This document shows positions 370-56,863 of a stretch of 64,000 nucleotides of DNA, one piece after another. The stretch comes from Thermococcus thermotolerans (GTDB lineage: Archaea > Methanobacteriota_B > Thermococci > Thermococcales > Thermococcaceae): positions 1,550,001 through 1,614,000 of the forward strand of contig NZ_CP102602.1 of assembly GCF_024707485.1 (NCBI RefSeq). Direction: 5' to 3'. How positions within the stretch are numbered: position 1 is the stretch's first letter; each line of letters begins with the position of its first letter. The notes under the pieces were generated by a model. That model was not told the DNA's origin, did no database searches, and was given only the letters and a program-made list of their open reading frames with translations. Both the position numbers and the translations under genes were made by a program.

Positions 370-432
370 CCGCGTTTAGGGATTAAAATTAAAAGGCCAC
401 CACCTCCTCTATTTTCGGTGAGAGAAATGCCC

Positions 433-1350
433 ATGAGGTGCAAGTTCTGCGAGAAGCCAGCTTTCATTAAGCTTCACTACCCAAGAACCTACCTCTGCCC
501 GGAGCACTTCACGGAGTACTTCGAGAGGAAGGTGAAGAGGACAATAGAGCGCTACAAGCTTATCAGACCGGGCGAGAGGATTCTGGTTGTTGTGAGTGGC
601 GGGAAGGACTCAGCGGTTACAGCTTACGTGCTGAAAAAACTCGGCTACGACATCGAGTGCCTCCACATCAACCTGGGCATCGGAGAGTACTCGGAGAAGA
701 GCGAAGAATATGCAAAGAAGCAGTGCGAAGCTCTGGGGGTTCCCCTCCACATCGTCAGGGTTAAGGAGCTTTTGGGCCATGGAATCGGCGAAGTTAGGAC
801 GAGACGGCCCACATGCTCCTACTGCGGCTTAACCAAGCGCTACATCTTCAACAAGTTCGCCTACGACAACGGATTTGATGCAGTCGCCACCGGCCACAAC
901 CTCGACGACGAGGCGAGCTTCATCTTCGCCAACCTGATGAACTGGAACACGCAGTACCTGGCAAAGCAGGGGCCCGTAACTCCTTCCCAGTTCAACGGAA
1001 AGCTCGTGAAGAAGATAAAGCCTCTCTACGAGCTGACCGAGAGGGAGGTCGTGGCGTACGCCCTGGCGAACGGCATAGAGTACCACATCGAAGAATGCCC
1101 CCACGCGGTTGGGGCCCCGACCATAGAGTACAAGGGCATACTCAACGATATGGAGGAGAAGAGGCCCGGAACCAAGATAAACTTCGTGAAGGGCTACCTT
1201 AGGAAGAAGCACATCTTCGAGGCCGAGCTCCAGGAGAAGGAGTTGAGGGAGTGTAAAGTTTGCGGGATGCCATCGAGCGGGGAGGTATGTTCGTTCTGCA
1301 GGTTCTGGCGCATGGAGAAAGCGCTTGATTTCAGCCTCAGAAGGGAGTAA
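433..1350 (+). CDS. ttuA: TtuA-type tRNA-5-methyluridine(54) 2-sulfurtransferase
   Basis: It forms 2-thioribothymidine at position 54 of tRNA, a modification that stabilises tRNA at high temperature. The sequence shows an N-terminal zinc finger (Cys3, Cys6, Cys22, His25), the PP-loop SGGKDS (residues 55-60), the catalytic pair Cys128/Cys131 in RRPTCSYCG, Cys222 in EECPHA, and a C-terminal CxxC...CxxC zinc finger. The three central cysteines sit where the Fe-S-binding cysteines of Pyrococcus and Thermus TtuA lie. I chose ATG 433 because the GTG at 418 falls inside the ribosome site GGTGAG (417-422) and the homologues I recall begin MKCKFC. A paralogue lies at 20875. Length (305 aa) is normal for the family. 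Confidence 0.93.
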   Translation: MRCKFCEKPAFIKLHYPRTYLCPEHFTEYFERKVKRTIERYKLIRPGERILVVVSGGKDSAVTAYVLKKLGYDIECLHINLGIGEYSEKSEEYAKKQCEALGVPLHIVRVKELLGHGIGEVRTRRPTCSYCGLTKRYIFNKFAYDNGFDAVATGHNLDDEASFIFANLMNWNTQYLAKQGPVTPSQFNGKLVKKIKPLYELTEREVVAYALANGIEYHIEECPHAVGAPTIEYKGILNDMEEKRPGTKINFVKGYLRKKHIFEAELQEKELRECKVCGMPSSGEVCSFCRFWRMEKALDFSLRRE

Positions 1351-1442
1351 TCCATTCCGAAGCACACTTAAACGTTCGATCTTCATCCACAATAGCATAC
1401 TTTATTAAAGATATCAAACCCAATAGGTATAGGTGACCTGCG

Positions 1443-2099
1443 GTGAGTGTCCCAGACGGCCTCATGGATACGCTTTGGGAATCCCTCAAAAGGGGTGAGA
1501 TAGTCCTGATAGAAAGGACAGACAGTGGGGACCAGTACTTTGGGCTATCCCAGTTAATACGGTGGGGAAATGAAAAGGGGTACACAGTGGTGGTTGTGGA
1601 CATTTTTGACTCGCTTTACCTTCTAAAAGCAAAGGCGAAGCTGGCGGGAATAAACGACGAGATTTTTGATAAAGTCAAAGCGATTAAAATAGGGGGCAAA
1701 ATCGAAACTGGAGATATACTGGGGTGGATAAGGGACACCTCCGAACCTGTCATACTGGCAAAGAAGTTTGAGGAAACTTACGAGGAAGTCCTAAATTCAG
1801 AAGCCCCATTACTGACCGTGGCCGTGGGGCTTGAAAAGCTCTTTGTAACCTCAGAATTCTACCCAAGGAACATTCAGGCCATAATAACCGCCATATCGAG
1901 ATATGTTGGGGACGAAAGGAGGCTTTCAATACAGTTTCTGAAGGCCAAGGTAATTGACTCATCAAGGAGGTCCGTTGTGGACATCCTTGAGGATATTGCC
2001 ACCACAGTGATAAGGGTTTCGAGGAAAGACAAGGTTACTGAGTTTTACGTCATAAAATCAATAAACAAGAGCCTGGAAGGACTAACAATCAGGGTTTAA
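1443..2099 (+). CDS. DUF257-family protein
   Basis: This is a 218-residue soluble protein of a family known almost only from Thermococcales, with no assigned function. The fold pattern is that of a KaiC/RecA-like domain (GEIVLIERTDSG where the P-loop would be, then YTVVVVDIFDS and ITAISRYVG), but no GxxGxGKT Walker A is present, so ATP hydrolysis is doubtful. GTG 1443 is preceded by AGGTGA at 1431-1436. Its stop overlaps the stop of the convergent membrane-protein gene by 4 bp. Family assignment is from overall pattern and size. Confidence 0.75.
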   Translation: MSVPDGLMDTLWESLKRGEIVLIERTDSGDQYFGLSQLIRWGNEKGYTVVVVDIFDSLYLLKAKAKLAGINDEIFDKVKAIKIGGKIETGDILGWIRDTSEPVILAKKFEETYEEVLNSEAPLLTVAVGLEKLFVTSEFYPRNIQAIITAISRYVGDERRLSIQFLKAKVIDSSRRSVVDILEDIATTVIRVSRKDKVTEFYVIKSINKSLEGLTIRV

Positions 2100-2584
2100 A
2101 GGGCCATCCCCATGTGCTTCTTCGCTTTTCTTCTTATTCTGTACATCTCTGGAATCGAATAGTAGCCGTATATCACCATGACCCTGCCCGCTATGATGAG
2201 GAGCACCCCGATGTAGACAAGAAGGAGCGGGAGCCCAAGCAACATAAGACCGTACCCCCATATCACCGCGGGAACACCCGAGGCACGGTACAGGTAGTAG
2301 TTGGCCAGTATCTCGAAGAGGTACGCCACCGCCAAGAGAACCAGGCCCGCCTTGGCGGAACCGGCCAGAAGAACCAGGACAGCGGCCAGCGATGTTACAA
2401 CCGCAAACACGACGAATCTGAATATCCTGCTATCCCCGAAAACCTCCGCAAAGCCGTTCATCCCGAGGGCGTACGCTCCGAATCCAAAGAGTGAAACCAG
2501 AAAGCCCAGAAAGCCCCCAGCAAGTCCTGCCAGTATCAGCACAACCTGACCTATGACGGCGTTCCTCGCGGCATCCTCTATCAT
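2096..2584 (-). CDS. Four-helix membrane protein, possibly DUF996-like
   Basis: A 162-residue protein with about four hydrophobic segments: residues 10-30, 55-75, 78-95 and 108-138. A basic C-terminal tail (RIRRKAKKHMG) is predicted to be cytoplasmic. ATG 2584 follows GGTGAT at 2588-2593 (read on the minus strand), a standard site. Membrane topology resembles the archaeal DUF996 group, but I see no diagnostic motif. It is the last gene of its strand before the convergent DUF257 gene; function unknown. Confidence 0.75.
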   Translation of the reverse strand: MIEDAARNAVIGQVVLILAGLAGGFLGFLVSLFGFGAYALGMNGFAEVFGDSRIFRFVVFAVVTSLAAVLVLLAGSAKAGLVLLAVAYLFEILANYYLYRASGVPAVIWGYGLMLLGLPLLLVYIGVLLIIAGRVMVIYGYYSIPEMYRIRRKAKKHMGMAL

Positions 2585-2657
2585 CGTATCACCATTTGAA
2601 GTAGAAAATCAGACTTAAAAATATTTTGGAAAATTGTGAGAATGGAGAGTTAAAAAC

Positions 2658-4616
2658 TTAGAGCTCCCTGAATCTAATCCGGAACCTCAGTTCACCGTCC
2701 ACCGGGAACAGCAGGGTATAGCTGACGCCCTGCTGGATGAAGTCCCATCCAGCTTCGCTCTGACTGAGGGTCTTTATTGGATACTTCCAGACCCTTGCGT
2801 TTCTGTCGAGCTCTATCTTCACTCTCCCGATTCCGTAGGGGTCGTTCACCTCAAAGCTTTTCGCCCCGAACTCCTCGGGTTTCTCCATAACGCTGTGAAC
2901 GGCCAAGTTCAGCTCAACGCCGAAGAGGGCCTTGGCGTCACTCTTTACTGCGTAGTCAACGGCAAAGCCATCATCTTTCAGGTGGAAGACCTTCTCAACC
3001 CTCGCAGCCCTTCCCGAGACAGTCCCATCGCGCCAGAGGGCGATGCCCCCATCGGAGGTGCTGTAGTCGTATGCTCCCTTCACGAAGTCACCGAGCTCCA
3101 GGTATCTCGCAAGGCGGTACTCATCTATAGCCGTTTCCGGGTCGAGGAAGTGATCCTGAAGGAGCGCCCTGAGGTGGTTGTCGTAGGCAAGTTCCCGCCG
3201 TATTTCCTCTGGAATCTGCTTGCCAAGCTCGTGTATGCTCGCAACCCCCTCATCGCCCCCCTCTTCAGGGGTGGCCGCCTCGGGGACTTCGTGGTAGTGC
3301 TCCCACCGCCTAGCGAGAACGTCGTTGTAGTTGACCGCCCGTTTCTTTGAGCTGAGCTCGAACAGCGCTCCACCGTAGGAGGGTTTAAACACCGCGTAGA
3401 AGCTCTCGTTCTCCAGAAAGACCTCATCGTGGCCGTCGAAGTCTATGTCCCTCACGAAAGTTCCAACCTTCACATGGCTATTCGCCCTGATGATGTTCTC
3501 CCAGACCGCCCTCCTGAGGTGGGGGAGGTAGACGCCACCGAAGACGCCGTGCCAGTAGGCGTCGTTGCACTGGGCCTTGAGGATGAACTTTCTCGCCTCG
3601 GGGTTTTCCCTCACCAGCTTGCTCACCATCAGCATTCTCTTGTGCATGTAGTTGCTCTCGGGGTACTTGAAGAAGAAGTTCTTCCAGATTCCGCCGCGGA
3701 CGAAAACCCTGTATTTCTCAAACTTTCCGTGCTTCTTCAGTGTCTCCACGAATTCAACGAAGAGCTTCGCCTGCTCCGCCGGAAGGCTCCACTCGCTCAT
3801 CTCGAAGTAGGAAGCTATCGGGAGGTACACAATGCCCCTCGGCTTAAATCTCGAAAGGTACTCCGAGTAGAGGGTCAGGCTTATCCTCTCATCGCTTGAA
3901 ACTCTATCAAAGAACTCCCTGAGCCAGCCCTTTTCATACACCCACTCGTATGTTCCGGGCCAGACCCCGAACTTCTCACCGTCGTCGTGGAAGACAGCAA
4001 CCTTGCTCCCGTCGCCGTCGTCGAGGGAATGGAGGTACTCGATTGTCTTCTCAACCGGACGGAAGGGTATAAGGTAGCGCAACTTCTCGTCTATCGGAAA
4101 AACGGCTATTACCTCCCCGCCGTCCTCCGTGTAGTAAGGCCAGAAGAGTTCTTCCTTGCTCAGACCGGCGCTCATAAAGTGGTAGTCGTCAACGATGACG
4201 TACTCTATACCAGCCTGGCGGAGGCTCTTTACGAGCTCCGGCTGCCACACACGCTCGGTAAGCCAGACGCCCTTGGCATCGTAGCCGAGCCTCCTGGCGA
4301 AGTCCTTGAGGAGTTTTATCTGCTCTATCCTGTCCTCCTTCGGAATCGCCGCCAGAACGGGTTCATAAAAGCCCGCAACCACTATCTCAAGCTGTCCTTT
4401 CCGAACAAGGGAACGGAGAAGGTCAATATACTCGGGACGGTTCTCCTCCAGCCATTCAAGGAGGGGACCGCTTATATGGACCGCGACCTTCATGTTCGGG
4501 TAGTCTTCAAGTATCTCCATGAACGGCCGGTAGGAACGCTCGTAGGCACTCTCCAAGACCCAACCGAAGTTACCGAGAGGCTGATGGTTATGGATCCCGA
4601 ATATGAAGTTCACCAT
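2658..4616 (-). CDS. 4-alpha-glucanotransferase (GH57)
   Basis: It transfers alpha-1,4-glucan chains between maltooligosaccharides in the cytoplasm, feeding starch breakdown products into glycolysis. At 652 residues it aligns from end to end, by recollection, with the structurally known T. litoralis enzyme (659 aa). Seen here: FGIHNHQPLGNFGW at the N-terminus, the nucleophile Glu121 in GVWLTERVWQPE, and the acid/base Asp212 in VFHDDGEKFG. I chose ATG 4616 because homologues begin just before NFIFG and GGGGTGGTT precedes it; the longer frame to 4637 would run into the TGM operator at 4632-4648. That operator lies between TATA box and start codon, the layout of a gene repressed by TrmBL1/Tgr when maltodextrins are absent. 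Confidence 0.96.
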   Translation of the reverse strand: MVNFIFGIHNHQPLGNFGWVLESAYERSYRPFMEILEDYPNMKVAVHISGPLLEWLEENRPEYIDLLRSLVRKGQLEIVVAGFYEPVLAAIPKEDRIEQIKLLKDFARRLGYDAKGVWLTERVWQPELVKSLRQAGIEYVIVDDYHFMSAGLSKEELFWPYYTEDGGEVIAVFPIDEKLRYLIPFRPVEKTIEYLHSLDDGDGSKVAVFHDDGEKFGVWPGTYEWVYEKGWLREFFDRVSSDERISLTLYSEYLSRFKPRGIVYLPIASYFEMSEWSLPAEQAKLFVEFVETLKKHGKFEKYRVFVRGGIWKNFFFKYPESNYMHKRMLMVSKLVRENPEARKFILKAQCNDAYWHGVFGGVYLPHLRRAVWENIIRANSHVKVGTFVRDIDFDGHDEVFLENESFYAVFKPSYGGALFELSSKKRAVNYNDVLARRWEHYHEVPEAATPEEGGDEGVASIHELGKQIPEEIRRELAYDNHLRALLQDHFLDPETAIDEYRLARYLELGDFVKGAYDYSTSDGGIALWRDGTVSGRAARVEKVFHLKDDGFAVDYAVKSDAKALFGVELNLAVHSVMEKPEEFGAKSFEVNDPYGIGRVKIELDRNARVWKYPIKTLSQSEAGWDFIQQGVSYTLLFPVDGELRFRIRFREL

Positions 4617-49864: not shown

Positions 49865-49958
49865 TTCGAACACCAAGAATAGTTCGTTGGATGGGTTATA
49901 AACCCCTCGTGGGGAAAGGTAATAAGGTCCAGACTCCAAAACACAAACGGTGAAACTC

Positions 49959-50923
49959 ATGAGGTTCTCCGTTCTCAAGGAGAGGGAGAGCACAGTTGGG
50001 CTGATATTTATGCTCATTTTTGAACTGTTCCTTCTGGCACTCTTGGCTTTCATAATATTCAACGTGGATGAAAACAGAATCTTCACCATAGGGGTCTTCG
50101 CTTTCTTTCTCCTGATAACACTAAGCGGAATTAGGGCTCTCATGAAGAAGAGGAGAGAATACCGGCGTGCCGAAAACTTCGCGAACCTTGCGAACTTTTC
50201 CGAATCGGAGGTAACCTTTCCGGAGGAGCTCGAACTCGAGAGGGGGACGCTCGAGATAAGGGGATACTGGGTCAGGAGCGGAAGGAACAGGAGATACCAA
50301 GTGGAGAGGAAGTTCCTTCCCGGGGAAAGGAAGAGAGCCTCACGGGTCCCTTTCATGGGCTCACCGTTCAAAGTGGCCGTTTCCCCCGACGGCACAGGCT
50401 TCGTAAAGGCTCCCGCCGTGAGAATAACCGACGGGCTTTACAAAAACGTCCTGGTGCTATTTTTCACCGATGAGGGTGAAGTCAGAGGTAGCGGCACGGT
50501 AACCGTTGCCACCGAGAGCGATTCCGTCCAAATAAACTTCAGAGGGGACGGAAAATTTATCCGGGGAATGTTTACTCCGCCCTCACGAAAGGGAAGAGCG
50601 TTAAGGTAGCCCTCACCGCTGAGGACTTTGAGTACAAGAAGGTCATCGGGAAGGGCAGGAGCTTCGAGTTCCGGGAAAGGATGCTCCCGGAGGAGAAGGT
50701 CATCATGGTGGGAACCTACGGGACGGTGACGCCGAGGATGGTGGCAAAGGCTCTCGGTGGGGGGACAGTACTCCTCGGCCACGGCGAGTTCATGATCCGC
50801 GGCATTCTGGACATAAGGCTGAGGCCGGACGTGAAGGCAGAGGAAACCTTCAGGGTCGAGCTGAAGGGAGAAGAAATCGAGGAAGAAAAGGAGTTCGAGG
50901 AGGAGTGGGGGTTCAGGGACTAA
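49959..50923 (+). pseudogene. Membrane-anchored hypothetical protein, interrupted by a frameshift
   Basis: The first frame, from ATG 49959 (after GGTGA), gives two membrane helices (about 18-65) and a beta-rich soluble part, and ends at TAG 50607-50609 after an abrupt loss of sense. A second frame, one base back, continues the protein smoothly: KIYPGNVYSALTKGKSV, then MLPEEKVIMVGTYGTV to TGA/TAA at 50923. The switch point is at the AAAA run 50552-50555 (GACGGAAAATTT). One missing A would explain it. The full protein would be about 321 residues. It could be a real disruption, a sequencing error in the run, or (less likely) programmed slippage. The family is not recognised. Confidence 0.72.
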
Positions 50924-52016
50924 CCCCAGATCTTACTTTCTTTTCAAAAATTCTCACTACCCATTCCATCTCACTTGCAGATGGAGGATTCCTAGATAGT
51001 TCAACGACAAACCTTGAGCCACTGGACAGCTTTTCGGTTTTTATATACAGATACAGCTTTTCTCTTTCTTCAAACCCAAGGGACTCCAAAAATTCTCCCA
51101 TTGCACCAGAGATGGCCCTAACCTGAATAAACCGTACTTTGTCGTGTTTTTCCTGAAGATACTCTATCAACTTCTTGAAGGCCTTAGCCACGTTTTCATC
51201 GTCAGTTTTTGTCAAAAAGGGATTTGGTGAAAAATCAAAAACAATAAGCCGCGAACCCTCGATAAAATATCTAACACCCAAGAGGTAGTTTGAAAGTGCA
51301 CCCGTTCCATCACCGTAGTGAATACTTAGACACTGGAACTCATTTTCTCCGTGGAACATCTCCAAAAGTCTGTTTTCAATTTCCATCTTAGCCTTTCTGC
51401 GAGCCACGTACTCAACCCAGCGTGCCTCTTCAAAGAACCTACAGGAATTCTTGCCTGAAACAACAAAAAACTCCCCACCAACATAATCCTCGTTTAATAT
51501 TCTAAGCTCTTGGTCATGCCTCAATGAGAACACTGCCCCATATAGAGGAATAGCACGATCGAGAAAAGTCTTCCAATCAAACTTTCCCAGGAATCCCCTA
51601 ACCCCCTCAATCAAGTCAATCCCAAGTAGGACAATATAGGGGCAGAACTTGTACGACAATTCTGAAAACTCAAACTTCTGCTCTTTGGAATCAGCTAGGT
51701 GTTTCAAAGCATTGAGTTCTCTACGTAGAGAGTGAAACTTCTTCCAGCACTGGACAATCTCTTTGGCTTTTTCGGGATCCCATATGAGCTTGTAGAGTTT
51801 AACTCTCCTACGGCCTTTTTGAAGATTTTCCTCCAGAGAAGGCTTGGACAGGACTTTTAAACGTACAAGTTCATCTAAAATCCTTCTGACAGTCTCCGGT
51901 CGCTCTTCAAGCTTTTTCGAGAGACTATACACCGTAAGCTCATTACCATCGTGTGCAAAGTCAATTATTTTGTATGCAATCTTTGTGAATTTCTCAGTAT
52001 CTTTAGGTCTCACCAT
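50913..52016 (-). CDS. Winged-helix N-terminal hypothetical protein, divergent to the viperin operon
   Basis: 367 residues. The N-terminus (about 1-70) is a winged helix: KFTKIAYKIIDFAHDGNELT, then SLSKKLEERPETVRRILDELVRLKVLSK. The remaining 300 residues are unrecognised; the last part (about 285-350, FIQVRAISGAMGEFLESLGFEEREKLYLYIK) resembles an acetyltransferase-like C-terminal strand-helix-strand, but this is a weak impression. ATG 52016 is preferred to GTG 52046 because GGGGT precedes it. It is visibly AT-richer than the flanking genes and shares its upstream region with the SMP-viperin-exonuclease operon, so it may regulate or belong to that system. Its 3' end overlaps the frameshifted gene by 11 bp. 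Confidence 0.78.
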   Translation of the reverse strand: MVRPKDTEKFTKIAYKIIDFAHDGNELTVYSLSKKLEERPETVRRILDELVRLKVLSKPSLEENLQKGRRRVKLYKLIWDPEKAKEIVQCWKKFHSLRRELNALKHLADSKEQKFEFSELSYKFCPYIVLLGIDLIEGVRGFLGKFDWKTFLDRAIPLYGAVFSLRHDQELRILNEDYVGGEFFVVSGKNSCRFFEEARWVEYVARRKAKMEIENRLLEMFHGENEFQCLSIHYGDGTGALSNYLLGVRYFIEGSRLIVFDFSPNPFLTKTDDENVAKAFKKLIEYLQEKHDKVRFIQVRAISGAMGEFLESLGFEEREKLYLYIKTEKLSSGSRFVVELSRNPPSASEMEWVVRIFEKKVRSGVSP

Positions 52017-52075
52017 ATATACCCCATAAGTTTGGCGAATATTCACAAAAAAACGTTTCTTTTCGAGAATACTTC

Positions 52076-52085
52076 CTTATAAAGT
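52076..52085 (+). promoter_or_regulatory. TATA box of the viperin operon
   Basis: CCTTATAAAG lies about 50 bp before ATG 52128, giving an expected transcript start near 52106 and a leader of about 20 nt that contains GGGGTGAG at 52116-52123. Confidence 0.6.
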
Positions 52086-52127: not shown

Positions 52128-52280
52128 ATGGGAAAGAAGGGTTCCAAACCCATGACCTGGGAGGCCGCGAGGAGGATACAGAGCGCAGTGGACAGCGGGA
52201 GAGCCGTTAAGGCCGACGAGGGTTTCAAGGCCAGGGCAATGAGCGCAGCCGCAAGGAACTCAAAGGGTGGGAAGAAATGA
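52128..52280 (+). CDS. 50-residue SMP (seed maturation protein)-like protein
   Basis: The protein runs MGKKGSKPMTWEAARRIQSA, then a Gly/Lys-containing turn, then FKARAMSAAARN and a lysine-rich end. This matches the short repeat of the plant SMP/LEA family (TxEAAxRIQSAxxxxGxxxxxGFxARAxSAAxxN), which also occurs as stand-alone small proteins in prokaryotes, without known function. GGGGTGAG gives a good ribosome site. Its stop overlaps the viperin start as ATGA (52277-52280), so the two are translationally coupled. Its base composition is like the host genome, unlike the viperin; it might be an older resident gene that the viperin was placed behind. Confidence 0.8.
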   Translation: MGKKGSKPMTWEAARRIQSAVDSGRAVKADEGFKARAMSAAARNSKGGKK

Positions 52281-53161
52281 ACACCTCACCCCTTTCAATT
52301 TTTGAAACGACTCCACTGGCTGTCAACTGGCATATGCTCGAAAGGTGCAACTATCGTTGCAGGTTCTGCTTCGCAAAGTTCAGAGGAGCGCCAGAGCTCT
52401 GCAGAGACATCGAAAAGTCAAAGATCCCAATAAGCAAGCTCAGGGAGAGCGGAATTGAAAAGATAAACTTCACCGGAGGTGAGCCACTACTCTGTGAAAA
52501 CCTCGGGGAGCTGATAAAATACGCCAAGGAGCTTGGCATGGCAACGTCGATAGTCACCAACGGCTACTATCTCGTGGAAGACCTCGGAAAGGAATTCCTG
52601 AAAGAATATGGAAGATACCTTGACTGGATTGGCATCAGCCTTGACAGCGGAAAGGAAGAAGTCGAAGTTGCACTCGGCAGGGGTTATGGTGATCACGTCA
52701 AAAGGGTTCAAGAAGCAGTCAAAATAATAAGGAAGCTTCATCCCCACATTGGAGTCAAGATAAACACAGTAGTTACCAAATTAAACTGGCAGGAGGACAT
52801 GCATGACATCATCAGGGAACTGTCACCAGACAGATGGAAAGTTTTTCAGCTAAAAATAGTGCAGGGAATAAACGAAGAAAGCATAGAGCTGGCGATTACA
52901 GAAAAAGAATTCCAATCATTTGTTGAACGTCACAGCGACCTGAAACCAGTAGCAGAGGACAACGAGCTGATGACCGGTTCATATTTAATGATGGATCCCT
53001 ATGGAAGGTTCTATGACGAGAACACCCAGGCCAACAATCACCGGCCTTCCTTGCTGGAAGTTGAACTGAATGAAGCATTTGATGGGCTGAGATTTGACGC
53101 ATCGAAGTTCGTTCTCCGCGGAGGGATTTATAACTGGAGGAGGGGTGGAAATGAGGTTTAA
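52277..53161 (+). CDS. Prokaryotic viperin (radical SAM ddhNTP synthase)
   Basis: Viperins use a [4Fe-4S] cluster and S-adenosylmethionine to convert CTP, UTP or GTP to 3'-deoxy-3',4'-didehydro nucleotides that terminate viral RNA chains. In this 294-residue protein the cluster motif is CNYRCRFC (Cys24, Cys28, Cys31) in VNWHMLERCNYRCRFCFAKF. Family-specific blocks follow: KINFTGGEP (62-70), WIGISLDS and LGRG (117-136), KINTVVTKLNWQEDM (161-175), RWKVFQ (186-191), EDNELM...SYLMMDPYGRF (227-245), and the C-terminal FVLRGGIYNW, which matches the RGGxYxW tail of animal viperin. These go far beyond general radical SAM similarity. It overlaps the SMP-like gene by ATGA and the exonuclease-like gene by 11 bp. 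It is AT-richer than its surroundings, which suggests transfer. Nucleotide preference cannot be read. Confidence 0.93.
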   Translation: MNTSPLSIFETTPLAVNWHMLERCNYRCRFCFAKFRGAPELCRDIEKSKIPISKLRESGIEKINFTGGEPLLCENLGELIKYAKELGMATSIVTNGYYLVEDLGKEFLKEYGRYLDWIGISLDSGKEEVEVALGRGYGDHVKRVQEAVKIIRKLHPHIGVKINTVVTKLNWQEDMHDIIRELSPDRWKVFQLKIVQGINEESIELAITEKEFQSFVERHSDLKPVAEDNELMTGSYLMMDPYGRFYDENTQANNHRPSLLEVELNEAFDGLRFDASKFVLRGGIYNWRRGGNEV

Positions 53162-53840
53162 ACATGGAGTTACACACGTGATTTTCTTCGATATCGAGTA
53201 CTACGTTCCGGAAGAACACAGAAACCGGCCGGGACTAAAGGCCAATCCATATCTGAATGGAGGCTTCGTCATTGGGGGAGTTTTCCAGAGGTATTTCCCA
53301 ATAGAAAACAAATTCGAGAAAAAGGAGGAGTTCTGGATATGGGAGATGAATGGAAAAGACATACAGGAAAAAGAAAGGGAGCTTCTCAGGAAGATCTACT
53401 ACTATTTCCGGGAAAGCTGGACGAGACTGGAAGTGTTTGGAAACGGCCCCCGGCTCACGGAACCGATAGCTGCAGGATTCGGAATAGCCCGCTTTGACAT
53501 ACCGGTGCTCTTCGTAAGAAGCCTGATTCATGAAATCGCTGAGCCAGAGAAACTGTATGAAACATATTTCAAGATGAGACATCTTGATCTCAGCGTTGCT
53601 TCCGTTCCATTGACTCCAGAAAGAAAATATCCAGAGGTACTGGCTCCGGTATCTCAGAACTGGGTGATTAAAAACCTGCTCATGATTGAAAACAAAAAGC
53701 CAAGCGGAACTGAGGTGTGGGATTTTTATGATAGGTCAGAGCATGATAGAATCCGGAAGAGAACCATAGAAGAAATCGAGATTTCAAAGGATGTGTACTT
53801 CAAGCTGAAAAAGATTAGAAATAAAAGGAATAGAGAGTAG
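53151..53840 (+). CDS. DEDD-fold (RNase H-like) 3'-5' exonuclease-like protein coupled to viperin
   Basis: 229 residues. The first acidic pair is Asp14/Glu16 in VIFFDIEYYVPEEH (ExoI). GFGIARFDIPVLFVRSLI holds Asp116 (ExoII), in the GxxxxxFDxPxL pattern. Then come RHLDLSVA (Asp146) and a C-terminal RKRTIEEIEISKDVYFKLKK with Asp214 (ExoIII). The overall order matches PolB-exonuclease-like/RNase_H_2 families that trim nucleic acid 3' ends; the usual Tyr or His four residues before the last Asp is not obvious, so activity is not certain. ATG 53151, after GGAGGGGTGG, lies inside the last codons of the viperin gene. I infer removal of incorporated ddhNMP, or degradation of terminated transcripts. 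The family could not be named exactly. Confidence 0.75.
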   Translation: MRFKHGVTHVIFFDIEYYVPEEHRNRPGLKANPYLNGGFVIGGVFQRYFPIENKFEKKEEFWIWEMNGKDIQEKERELLRKIYYYFRESWTRLEVFGNGPRLTEPIAAGFGIARFDIPVLFVRSLIHEIAEPEKLYETYFKMRHLDLSVASVPLTPERKYPEVLAPVSQNWVIKNLLMIENKKPSGTEVWDFYDRSEHDRIRKRTIEEIEISKDVYFKLKKIRNKRNRE

Positions 53841-53858: not shown

Positions 53859-55637
53859 TCAATTCACCTTCACCTCAACCCCATTGACCTCGAACTCCCT
53901 GTTTATGTTGGCCATTACCTCATCGGGGTCGATAACTATCCTCATCGGCCTGGAGGGGAGCTCAAGGTCCACCGTTGCCGTTCCGTTAACCCAGACCGTC
54001 CTGTCAACATAGCTCCCGTCGTCGAGGTAAATCCGCACCGGGACGGGCATCGTGAAGTTGCTGGCGTCGGCGATGGTAAAGGTCATGCTGTAGCCGTTGC
54101 CCGTCGAAGAGAGGCCCAGGTGGGTGATGTTGTAGTCCGGGAACAGCGTGGAGTTGAACCACTCGTCGAAGAACCAGCCGAGGTCTTCACCGGAAACGTT
54201 CTCAACCGTTCTGATGAACGCCGTGTAGTTGCAGTGGGAGCCGTGGCACTCCCCAAGGACATCGTGAAGGGCCCTGTTGAAGGTCTCGTTTCCGACGATG
54301 AAGCGGAGGGAGCGGAGCATGAAGGCGCCCTTCCAGTAAAGGGTGATTCCGGAGCGTCGGTACTTCACTGCATCCCTCACCACCTCGTAGAAGGGCACAT
54401 CTCCCCCATATCTCAGCGTCGTGTACTCGTTTTGGTTCAGCCAGGAGAGATAGCCCTCGGGATTCCACCTGCCGTACGCCTCCATCTGCATAAAAGTTGC
54501 CAGCGGTTCGTTGAAGTAACCGAAGGAAGCGTAATAGCCGGCCCATTCATGGGCAAGCTCGTGGAAGATTATGGAGGCGTAGTTTACAGCGGAGTCGTTC
54601 ATGCCAACGAGGCATTCCACGAGTATAACGTGTCCCAAATTCAGTCCAAAGGGCTTCTTTCCAAAGCGTTTGTACATCATCCTCTGTAACCCTGGGAAGA
54701 AGACGGCATCAAACCTTTCAACCGGAAGAATCCCGGTCAGGTTGCTGTACAGCCCCATGGCAAAGGTGAACTCCCTTTTAACCAAGTCAAAGCCTTCCTC
54801 GTTATATATACCCTTGGTGAAATAGACGGTGAAGTTCACCCCGTTCCACTGAAAGCCCTTCCATTCCATGTCCGGGATGTAGAGCGTAAAGCCCTCGTAG
54901 GGTTTAAGGGAGGCGTTGTAAACGACCTTCATTCCCGAACGGACTATGCCCCACTCTGACAGCACAAAAACCGTGTTCTCTGGAAACGTGGGGATTACCG
55001 TGATGGTTGCATTCCTCGAAGCAAACTCCCACCAGGAAAAGTCGGTTCCAATGAGAACGTTCTTCCTCCACATCTCACGCAGGTAGTCCTCGTTCTCAAG
55101 GTAGCGGAACTCGTAGTGGGCAACCCCGTGGAGCTCGCTAAGATTCGTCGAGACGTTGACCGCGTAAATCTCAATGCCAACGCCATCTTCATTAACCCAC
55201 CGGTAGACGTCCATGCGGGAAAGCTCAAGAGGGACGCCCTCGATGGTGACGTTGAGGGTTATAGGATCCTTCGGGGTGACGAGGAGCACCAGATAAAGCG
55301 TTCCAGAGGTGAAATTTGTAAGGACGAACTCGTACCTGCCCCTGAAGGTTCCATCCGTGTAGTTCACGCTTATGTTCCCGTACTGGGAATAAGGCACGGC
55401 AGAATACGTCTTCCAGAAGAATTCGGTCATGTTTTCAAAGCTCATGTTTACGTCAGCCCGCTCTTCAGGGTAGAGGAACTTCAGCGGCGTCTTGTGCTGA
55501 GAAGCCGGTGATTGAAGGGACGAAACTGTGTTCGAGGCCGATCCAGTTGATGTCGTTCCAGTCGTCGTATTCCCACCGAGACAGCCGCTCACGAGAACCA
55601 TGAAAACAACCAGGGAAGCAAGAACCGCCTTCCTCAC
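53859..55637 (-). CDS. Membrane-anchored M1-like metallopeptidase (gluzincin) lipoprotein
   Basis: 592 residues. The signal MRKAVLASLVVFMVLVSGC ends in a lipobox, followed by a Thr/Ser-rich linker (GGNTTTGTTSTGSASN). The catalytic domain has HELAHEWAGYYA (HExxH) and, 18 residues on, NEPLA with the third zinc ligand Glu, as in M1 aminopeptidases. A C-terminal beta domain ends the protein, and many N-glycosylation sequons are present. It is likely an extracellular peptidase that supplies peptides for uptake. GTG 55637 is chosen since GGTGGGTT precedes it, with a minus-strand TATA (CTTTTTATAC) at about 55672-55681; the frame further upstream is antisense to trpS coding. Confidence 0.87.
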   Translation of the reverse strand: MRKAVLASLVVFMVLVSGCLGGNTTTGTTSTGSASNTVSSLQSPASQHKTPLKFLYPEERADVNMSFENMTEFFWKTYSAVPYSQYGNISVNYTDGTFRGRYEFVLTNFTSGTLYLVLLVTPKDPITLNVTIEGVPLELSRMDVYRWVNEDGVGIEIYAVNVSTNLSELHGVAHYEFRYLENEDYLREMWRKNVLIGTDFSWWEFASRNATITVIPTFPENTVFVLSEWGIVRSGMKVVYNASLKPYEGFTLYIPDMEWKGFQWNGVNFTVYFTKGIYNEEGFDLVKREFTFAMGLYSNLTGILPVERFDAVFFPGLQRMMYKRFGKKPFGLNLGHVILVECLVGMNDSAVNYASIIFHELAHEWAGYYASFGYFNEPLATFMQMEAYGRWNPEGYLSWLNQNEYTTLRYGGDVPFYEVVRDAVKYRRSGITLYWKGAFMLRSLRFIVGNETFNRALHDVLGECHGSHCNYTAFIRTVENVSGEDLGWFFDEWFNSTLFPDYNITHLGLSSTGNGYSMTFTIADASNFTMPVPVRIYLDDGSYVDRTVWVNGTATVDLELPSRPMRIVIDPDEVMANINREFEVNGVEVKVN

Positions 55638-55708
55638 CTTTAACCCACCGGTAAAAGTTAATCCCAGCCAGTATAAAAAGTTTCGTGAAAATGGATTAAA
55701 AATCCGGC

Positions 55709-56863
55709 TCAGCCCCTCAGCGGCTCCGGGATGCTCTTCTCCCACTGCTCGCGGGCGAGCTCGCCAGTGTACTTGAACTTCTCGACCTTCTTCTCGGCCT
55801 CCTTGCGCTTCTTCTGGTGCTCTTTCAGGAAGTCCTGAACCTTTTCGATGAGGTAGCGCTTGCACTGGCCGCAGAGGAGCTCGCCGTTCTTACATGCATG
55901 GTAGCGCTCCATGAGCTTCTTGTCGTCGGGCTCGAAGAATATCTCCAGCCACTTGAAGACGACACACTTCTCGGGCTCGCCGCCCTTCTCGCGCTGCTCC
56001 TTGGCGGTTGCCCTGCCTCCGGTTAGGGCGTACTTCCATATCTTCCTGCCAGCCTCCTCCGGGTCGTCGGTGAGGTAAATGGCCGTCTCAGGCTTGCTGG
56101 CGCTCATCTTGCCCTCAAGGCCCATCAAACCGGGCACGAACTTGGAGTGAATGGCAGCGGTCTTGTAGTAGCCGAGGCTCTCTGCAAAGTCCCTCTGGAG
56201 CCTCCAGTATGGATCCTGGTCTATGGCCGCAGGGATTAAACACCTTTTCTTCTCGAAGAAGGTCGGCGCTGCCTGTATCGCCGGGTAAAATATCATCCCA
56301 ATCTTGCTCTGGTCGGTGAAGCCGAAGACCGCCCTGGCCATCGAGTAGTTTATCTTTTTCGCTATCGGTATCGCCATCTCGTATATCTTGGTGAACTCGC
56401 TGTCCTGGAAGATGAAGGTTTTATCCGGATCGAAGCCGACGGCTATAATGTCCAATATGTTGTCGTAGGCCCACCTCTTGGTGTCGTCGAAGGTGAGCTT
56501 CTCCTTGAAGAGGAACTTCTCGTCGTCGGTTATCTGGATGTAGAGGTTGACGCCGAACTTCTCCTGGAGCCACTTGGTGGCGAAGAAGGGGATGATGTGG
56601 CCGATGTGCATCGGCCCGCTCGGGCCCCTTCCGGTGTAGAGGAAGAAGCCCTTTCCGCTCTCGTAGTCCGCTAAAACTTTATCGTAGTCCCTGTGGGAGA
56701 AGAAGAACCTCCTCCGGAAGTAGATGGGAAGCTCGCTCTTCGTCAGCTCTGCGGTTTTCTCTATCAGCTCGTCCGTGAGCGGACTCGTCCCGAACTCCTC
56801 TATCAGCTTAGCGTAGTCCACTACGCCTTCAACGTCCCATGGGGTGACCTTAAAGTCGTCCAT
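55709..56863 (-). CDS. trpS: Tryptophanyl-tRNA synthetase
   Basis: Charges tRNA-Trp with tryptophan. The 384-residue class I synthetase is of the archaeal/eukaryotic type: the N-terminal extension VTPWDVEGVVDYAKLIEEFG, HIGH motif as GPMHIGH (about residue 82-88), and KMSKS motif as GKMSASKPE. ATG 56863 is preceded by GGAGGTGTTTTG. A possible TATA (ACTTTAAATC) lies about 120 bp upstream, so the leader may be about 95 nt. Confidence 0.96.
   Translation of the reverse strand: MDDFKVTPWDVEGVVDYAKLIEEFGTSPLTDELIEKTAELTKSELPIYFRRRFFFSHRDYDKVLADYESGKGFFLYTGRGPSGPMHIGHIIPFFATKWLQEKFGVNLYIQITDDEKFLFKEKLTFDDTKRWAYDNILDIIAVGFDPDKTFIFQDSEFTKIYEMAIPIAKKINYSMARAVFGFTDQSKIGMIFYPAIQAAPTFFEKKRCLIPAAIDQDPYWRLQRDFAESLGYYKTAAIHSKFVPGLMGLEGKMSASKPETAIYLTDDPEEAGRKIWKYALTGGRATAKEQREKGGEPEKCVVFKWLEIFFEPDDKKLMERYHACKNGELLCGQCKRYLIEKVQDFLKEHQKKRKEAEKKVEKFKYTGELAREQWEKSIPEPLRG

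Follow-up and report, generated by a model that had tools for sequence, protein, structure and literature searches.

Organization of the locus

The window, that is, the whole stretch of 64,000 nucleotides analysed here, belongs to a complete genome of 2.07 Mb and carries a compact cassette of three plus-strand genes, read in the order small gene, viperin, nuclease-like gene, opposite a divergent gene on the minus strand (Table 1). The stop codon of the small gene and the start codon of the viperin overlap as ATGA, with the viperin ATG at 52277, and the viperin stop ends at 53161, giving an overlap of 11 bp with the nuclease-like gene, whose ATG lies at 53151. These coordinates were correctly given in an earlier note made from the same letters, which had described a compact operon of the three genes; the putative divergent regulator, the shared promoter element, the trpS hotspot and the 50-residue gene as the constant part go beyond that first reading. 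The reading frames can be taken as real, since the trio recurs in the same order in three other genomes (G053, G072 and G077) and the dN of the viperin is about a tenth of its dS. The listed ORF of the divergent gene extends to a GTG at 52046, and its homologues begin at the ATG at 52016.

Table 1. Genes and promoter features of the cassette and its right-hand flank (positions in the window).
Feature	Position	Strand	Remark
Divergent gene, winged-helix N-terminus and large unknown domain	50913..52016	-	Probable regulator
Candidate operator AATATTCAC-N-GAGAATAC	52038..52072		Conserved promoter element, imperfect inverted-repeat arms
TATA-box-like TTATAAAG	52077..52084	+	About 50 nt 5′ of the small gene
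Gene for 50-residue SMP-like protein	52128..52280	+	Constant cassette member
Viperin (radical-SAM nucleotide dehydratase), 294 residues	52277..53161	+	CX3CX2C motif CNYRCRFC
Nuclease-like gene, 229 residues	53151..53840	+	Stand-alone relative of the family-B DNA polymerase 3′-5′ exonuclease domain
M1-type peptidase gene	53859..55865	-	ORF start over-extended; variable neighbour between trpS and cassette
trpS (tryptophanyl-tRNA synthetase)	55709..56863	-	Read from sequence; right-hand hotspot anchor

The viperin

Judged by its sequence, the middle gene (52277-53161) encodes a genuine viperin. Its product scores 302 bits (2.8e-90) against the NCBIfam model NF038283, for which the cut-off is 180, and 288 bits against the PADLOC pVip model, but only 72 bits against the MoaA model, and its closest PDB structure is 5VSL (E 5e-54). 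The CX3CX2C motif occupies residues 24-31 and the C-terminal RGGxYxW, here RGGIYNW, residues 281-287; the cluster cysteines and RGGIYxW are conserved in all four Thermococcus orthologues. A tree was made of the Thermococcus copies, nine annotated plasmid viperins and, from Thermococci genomes, 12 radical-SAM paralogues; in it the viperins form one clade (support 100/100), the four Thermococcus copies making up a single group. Profile scores and tree together exclude MoaA or another radical-SAM enzyme, and the identification made in the earlier note stands. The dN/dS of the viperin is about 0.1 in those pairs for which a long-distance dS can be estimated, and 0.25 for the close pair G072-G077.

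The nuclease-like protein

The third protein of the window scores 19.6 bits against PF10108 (cut-off 24) and its G053 orthologue 30.1, while a distant Thermococci homologue (G004) lies above the cut-off of PF03104. Its AlphaFold2 model (pLDDT 80.9, pTM 0.81) finds family-B DNA polymerase exonuclease domains as top Foldseek matches (E 3.8e-5, probability 1.00), with TM values of 0.56-0.59 for several of them; polymerase alpha gives the lowest E-value, and the ASFV, RB69 and HSV exonuclease domains score almost as well. The modelled protein has an RNase H-like exonuclease fold of the PolB type.

Among the ten homologues aligned, ExoI (D14xE16) and ExoII (D116) are invariant. The Tyr-x-x-x-Asp of ExoIII was not found in the alignments of the window protein, and its place is taken by R204-T-x-x-E208, with Arg for the catalytic Tyr and Glu for the metal-binding Asp. 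E208 is invariant, and R204 is present in all aligned homologues except the distant G004, which has Tyr there. All four carboxylate positions are acidic in every homologue examined, from Thermococcus to a bacterial prophage. The acidic set is therefore complete but altered: catalytic activity, as predicted from these residues, is plausible, and the double substitution could lower or abolish it. What the earlier note called “DEDD exonuclease-like” is thus borne out for the fold and not for the third exonuclease motif, which is non-canonical.

R-T-x-x-E also occurs in a 29%-identical protein of the bacterial prophage contig (L079:4977-5762), encoded by a gene adjoining an integrase; no viperin lies on that contig. 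This prophage protein was the one homologue from viral contigs, and tblastn returned no nuclease-like gene from plasmids or phages. It could be the sign of a broader family, as yet unnamed, that mobile elements carry.

The small protein

The small gene is present in 13 of 115 Thermococci genomes, its products being 85-100% identical. With dN of about 0-0.14 and dS mostly of 0.4-1.5 between different lineages, it is the best-conserved gene of the cassette. At E up to 10, the window protein matches nothing in Pfam. Its nearest plasmid relatives, the best of which is 51% identical over about 42 residues (tblastn E 0.2), match the SMP domain PF04927 weakly, at E 0.007 and 0.03, below the cut-off. 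The label “SMP-like” given in the earlier note is therefore earned through plasmid and bacterial relatives and not by the window protein itself. A long form of the protein, with an acidic tail ending in FD(I/M)GNWF (L064, L066, L067, L068, L061 and L063), characterizes the four genomes without the nuclease-like gene, plus G039 and G073; the tail is absent from the small protein of the four viperin genomes and of G054, G055 and G106. A Salinimonas plasmid (L111:2489-4069) carries an SMP-like small gene and, after it, a gene whose 457-residue product weakly matches TPR.

Divergent genes and promoter elements

The winged-helix divergent gene occurs in nine of the 115 genomes, each of which also has the small gene. 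Residues 17-87 of its product are modelled as a wHTH with fair to high confidence and the remainder poorly, and the protein weakly matches the wHTH end of CARF3 models; it is probably a regulator. Four other genomes, including G053, G072 and G077, carry instead a divergent gene for a protein of about 760-800 residues without a significant Pfam match, whose N-terminus we read as RHH-like. The 13 small-gene genomes are exactly these nine plus four, the two regulator types being mutually exclusive.

Each type has its own promoter element. All nine winged-helix genomes retain ATTCACAAAAAA...GAGAATAC; the four genomes of the other type lack it and share a different element of their own. In the window, the element lies directly upstream of the TATA box; at a distance of 50-54 nt from the start codon, eight of the nine winged-helix genomes have TTATAAAG and the remaining one TTATATAG. 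The divergent proteins would bind their respective elements.

Genomic position

Wherever the flanks suffice, the cassette is bounded by trpS on one side and an FAA-hydrolase gene on the other (the contigs of G073, G077 and G106 are too short to display both anchors), with the exception of G054, which is rearranged on the regulator side. In that genome the small gene adjoins a broken winged-helix gene, of which the first 249 residues are in place (regulator at 7824-8636 of L065); the last 117 match some 10 kb off (G054:C1:1605806-1606156), a split that points to rearrangement of the locus. trpS was found in 55 of the 61 genomes of the genus, and the cassette lies beside or near it; the position of the M1 peptidase relative to the cassette varies between genomes. 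In 20 Thermococcus genomes lacking the cassette, other genes follow trpS, the commonest being those for an M1 peptidase, a membrane protein or the FAA hydrolase. This fits a hotspot for accessory genes at the trpS site. Two genomes, G039 (L061, about 420-4000) and G054 (L065, 1162-2828), have CRISPR arrays at a distance of a few kilobases, and a direct-repeat search found none at 49-64 kb of the window.

The window has a GC content of 0.529. The AT-richness that the earlier note read as a sign of acquisition holds for the viperin (GC 0.462) and the nuclease-like gene (0.435), as it does for the divergent regulator (0.416); the small gene, by contrast, is GC-rich (0.588).

The membrane-protein gene beside the cassette (49950-50923, plus strand) consists in the window of two frames, 49950-50609 and 50681-50923; set against the single 325-residue frame of G053, it looks disrupted here.

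Distribution and history of the cassette

The viperin is confined to four of the 115 Thermococci genomes (G000, G053, G072 and G077), in all of which the order small gene, viperin, nuclease-like gene is kept, across two regulator types. Nine of the 13 small-gene genomes have the nuclease-like gene and four of those nine the viperin; a further four have the small gene and regulator alone. The viperin is thus an optional part of the cassette and the small SMP-like protein its constant part. Purifying selection acts on all three cassette genes.

Five genomes (G039, G054, G055, G073 and G106) have the nuclease-like gene without viperin, 44-46 nt 3′ of the small gene. The G106 copy contains an in-frame stop. 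The intact copies have dN/dS of about 0.1-0.2 (0.12-0.20) with dS up to about 0.9, as in the pair G039-G054 (dN 0.098, dS 0.81). Being kept under purifying selection there, the nuclease-like gene has a role when the viperin is absent.

A single acquisition within one genus accounts for all four viperin copies; their linkage to the nuclease-like gene is therefore conserved but not independently repeated, and may be plain co-inheritance since all copies come from one lineage. The chance of all four viperins falling among the nine nuclease-bearing of 13 cassettes is 126/715, about 0.18, and not significant. Outside the group, a single scan of genome contigs for viperin returned only close Thermococcus relatives, the named ones being Thermococcus MAGs, and one weak radical-SAM match; none was found in the phages or viral contigs searched, nor in 384 Omnitrophota genomes, a check made without a positive control. 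Recurrence of the neighbour pair in unrelated genomes would, according to the earlier note, support a system; as far as these searches reach, the pair recurs in G053, G072 and G077, and none of nine plasmid viperin loci has the nuclease-like gene.

As to the direction of change, the five viperin-less nuclease-like copies form one clade (99/99), and a tree test did not reject the viperin-bearing copies as one group either (p-AU 0.40). Compared with the local background, only the spacers of G039/G073 (3′ side) and G054 (5′ side) stand out among the 44-46 nt spacers; such possible remnants hint weakly at viperin loss in the viperin-less clade. In translation the spacers strikingly resemble deletion scars of the viperin, but most of this resemblance is due to a common ribosome-binding site, to T-rich sequence and to the beginning of the gene that follows.

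Relation to known systems

Archaeal viperins are already well known (PMC12988326, PMC11291487). With the prokaryotic viperins (pVip; NF038283, PADLOC PDLC02903/02904) the window protein shares the full-length match, CX3CX2C, RGGxYxW and the clade; its neighbours differ, being an SMP-like small protein and a PolB-exonuclease-like protein instead of a nucleotide kinase. A kinase lies directly upstream in three of the nine plasmid loci, and profile searches of the four cassette proteins of the window gave no kinase-like match. An archaea-only viperin system with a TPR protein has been described (PMC12988326). It resembles the present cassettes in joining an archaeal viperin to an accessory protein, and the RHH-like protein found in G053, G072 and G077 has a length of about 760-800 residues; however, the two RHH-like proteins tested gave no TPR match, and the window has a winged-helix gene instead.

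The nuclease-like protein resembles the PolB 3′-5′ exonuclease domain (PF10108, PF03104) in predicted fold, the ExoI DxE and the ExoII Asp, and differs from it in standing alone and in having R-T-x-x-E instead of Y-x-x-x-D. SARS-CoV-2 nsp14 ExoN, an exoribonuclease, excises ddhCMP from RNA 3′ ends (PMC9415739); it is viral and opposes the host viperin, and is cited as chemical precedent only. No viperin-exonuclease pairing was found in the literature searched, outside the scope of which fell the two main prokaryotic-viperin papers. The cassette is, mechanism aside, a real new variant of the viperin cassette, any claim to priority being limited by that scope.

Interpretation

Viperins make a chain-ending ddh-nucleotide, and a still open question in viperin immunity is how a cell tolerates chain terminators of its own making. 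The explanation that we favour, at a probability of roughly 0.45, is that of a regulated, modular accessory cassette at the Thermococcus trpS hotspot, probably antiviral. The antiviral role is suggested by the viperin, the patchy presence and the hotspot. In such a cassette, the divergent winged-helix protein and the conserved promoter element would control one transcript, of which the small SMP-like protein would be the constant product. Where present, the viperin would convert a nucleoside triphosphate to its ddh form, ending the chains of viral or plasmid polymerases. The last protein would be an unusual polymerase-type nuclease, acting at nucleic-acid 3′ ends in a role of its own; RNA or DNA as its target is a guess. 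Beside a viperin, it may also trim ddh-terminated host ends. In these genomes viperin never occurs without the nuclease and the nuclease also occurs without viperin, which fits a nuclease with its own job from which viperin also benefits, an asymmetry that rests on one lineage.

The earlier note had proposed that a maker of chain terminators is coupled to an enzyme acting on 3′ ends. The pair does recur in three other genomes, but the nuclease-like gene is also kept without viperin, in five genomes, with a dN/dS of about 0.12-0.20 among the intact copies, and in a prophage. In its strict form, that the nuclease exists to cope with the product of viperin, the proposal is not supported. A dedicated safeguard, freeing host RNA or DNA of 3′-terminal ddh-nucleotides and so preventing self-poisoning, would agree with the constant presence of the nuclease-like gene beside viperins of this class, with the 11-bp overlap in the window, with the removal of ddhCMP by a viral exoribonuclease (PMC9415739) and, if the suggestive remnants are trusted, with descent of the viperin-less genomes from viperin-bearing ones. 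As the nuclease-like gene also occurs, under purifying selection up to a dS of about 0.9, without viperin, as its prophage homologue has none on the contig, and as viperins elsewhere do without it (0/9), we consider a sole safeguarding function unlikely.

Equally unlikely, in our estimate, is a catalytically dead protein serving as a nucleic-acid-binding or regulatory subunit. The exonuclease domain of eukaryotic DNA polymerase alpha is inactive, and it is polymerase alpha that gives the best Foldseek E-value; the replacement of the catalytic Tyr by Arg and a Glu as fourth metal ligand point the same way. Decay, however, would not keep four positions acidic from Thermococcus to the prophage, and the active domains of ASFV, RB69 and HSV score nearly as well. 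That the genes are mere passengers sharing a hotspot and a promoter, the real business being that of the small protein and the regulator, could be read from the four genomes with these two alone, from the five with the small and nuclease-like genes and no viperin, and from the high conservation of the small gene; the overlapping start and stop codons and the unvarying order in the four viperin genomes, under either regulator type, make this quite improbable. Returning to the modular cassette, a bolder version of it, which we hold to be rather unlikely, would have the SMP-like protein and the R-T-x-x-E nuclease form an undescribed archaeal immune module under a virus-responsive regulator, with viperin as an add-on effector, the toxic product of which would also be removed from host 3′ ends by the nuclease.

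The question of self-survival becomes testable where, as here, a viperin is co-translated with a relative of 3′-end nucleases in hyperthermophiles, for some of which genetic systems exist. The nested cassettes of related genomes (small gene; with nuclease; with viperin) allow a natural comparison of the presence and absence of each part, and the conserved promoter element offers a route to what the cassette senses.

A further observation concerns the first codons of the viperin (52277-52330, and likewise in G053, G072 and G077), which are T-rich and might act as a leaky terminator lowering viperin expression; in the viperin-less genomes a T-rich stretch lies at this place, directly 3′ of the small-gene stop.
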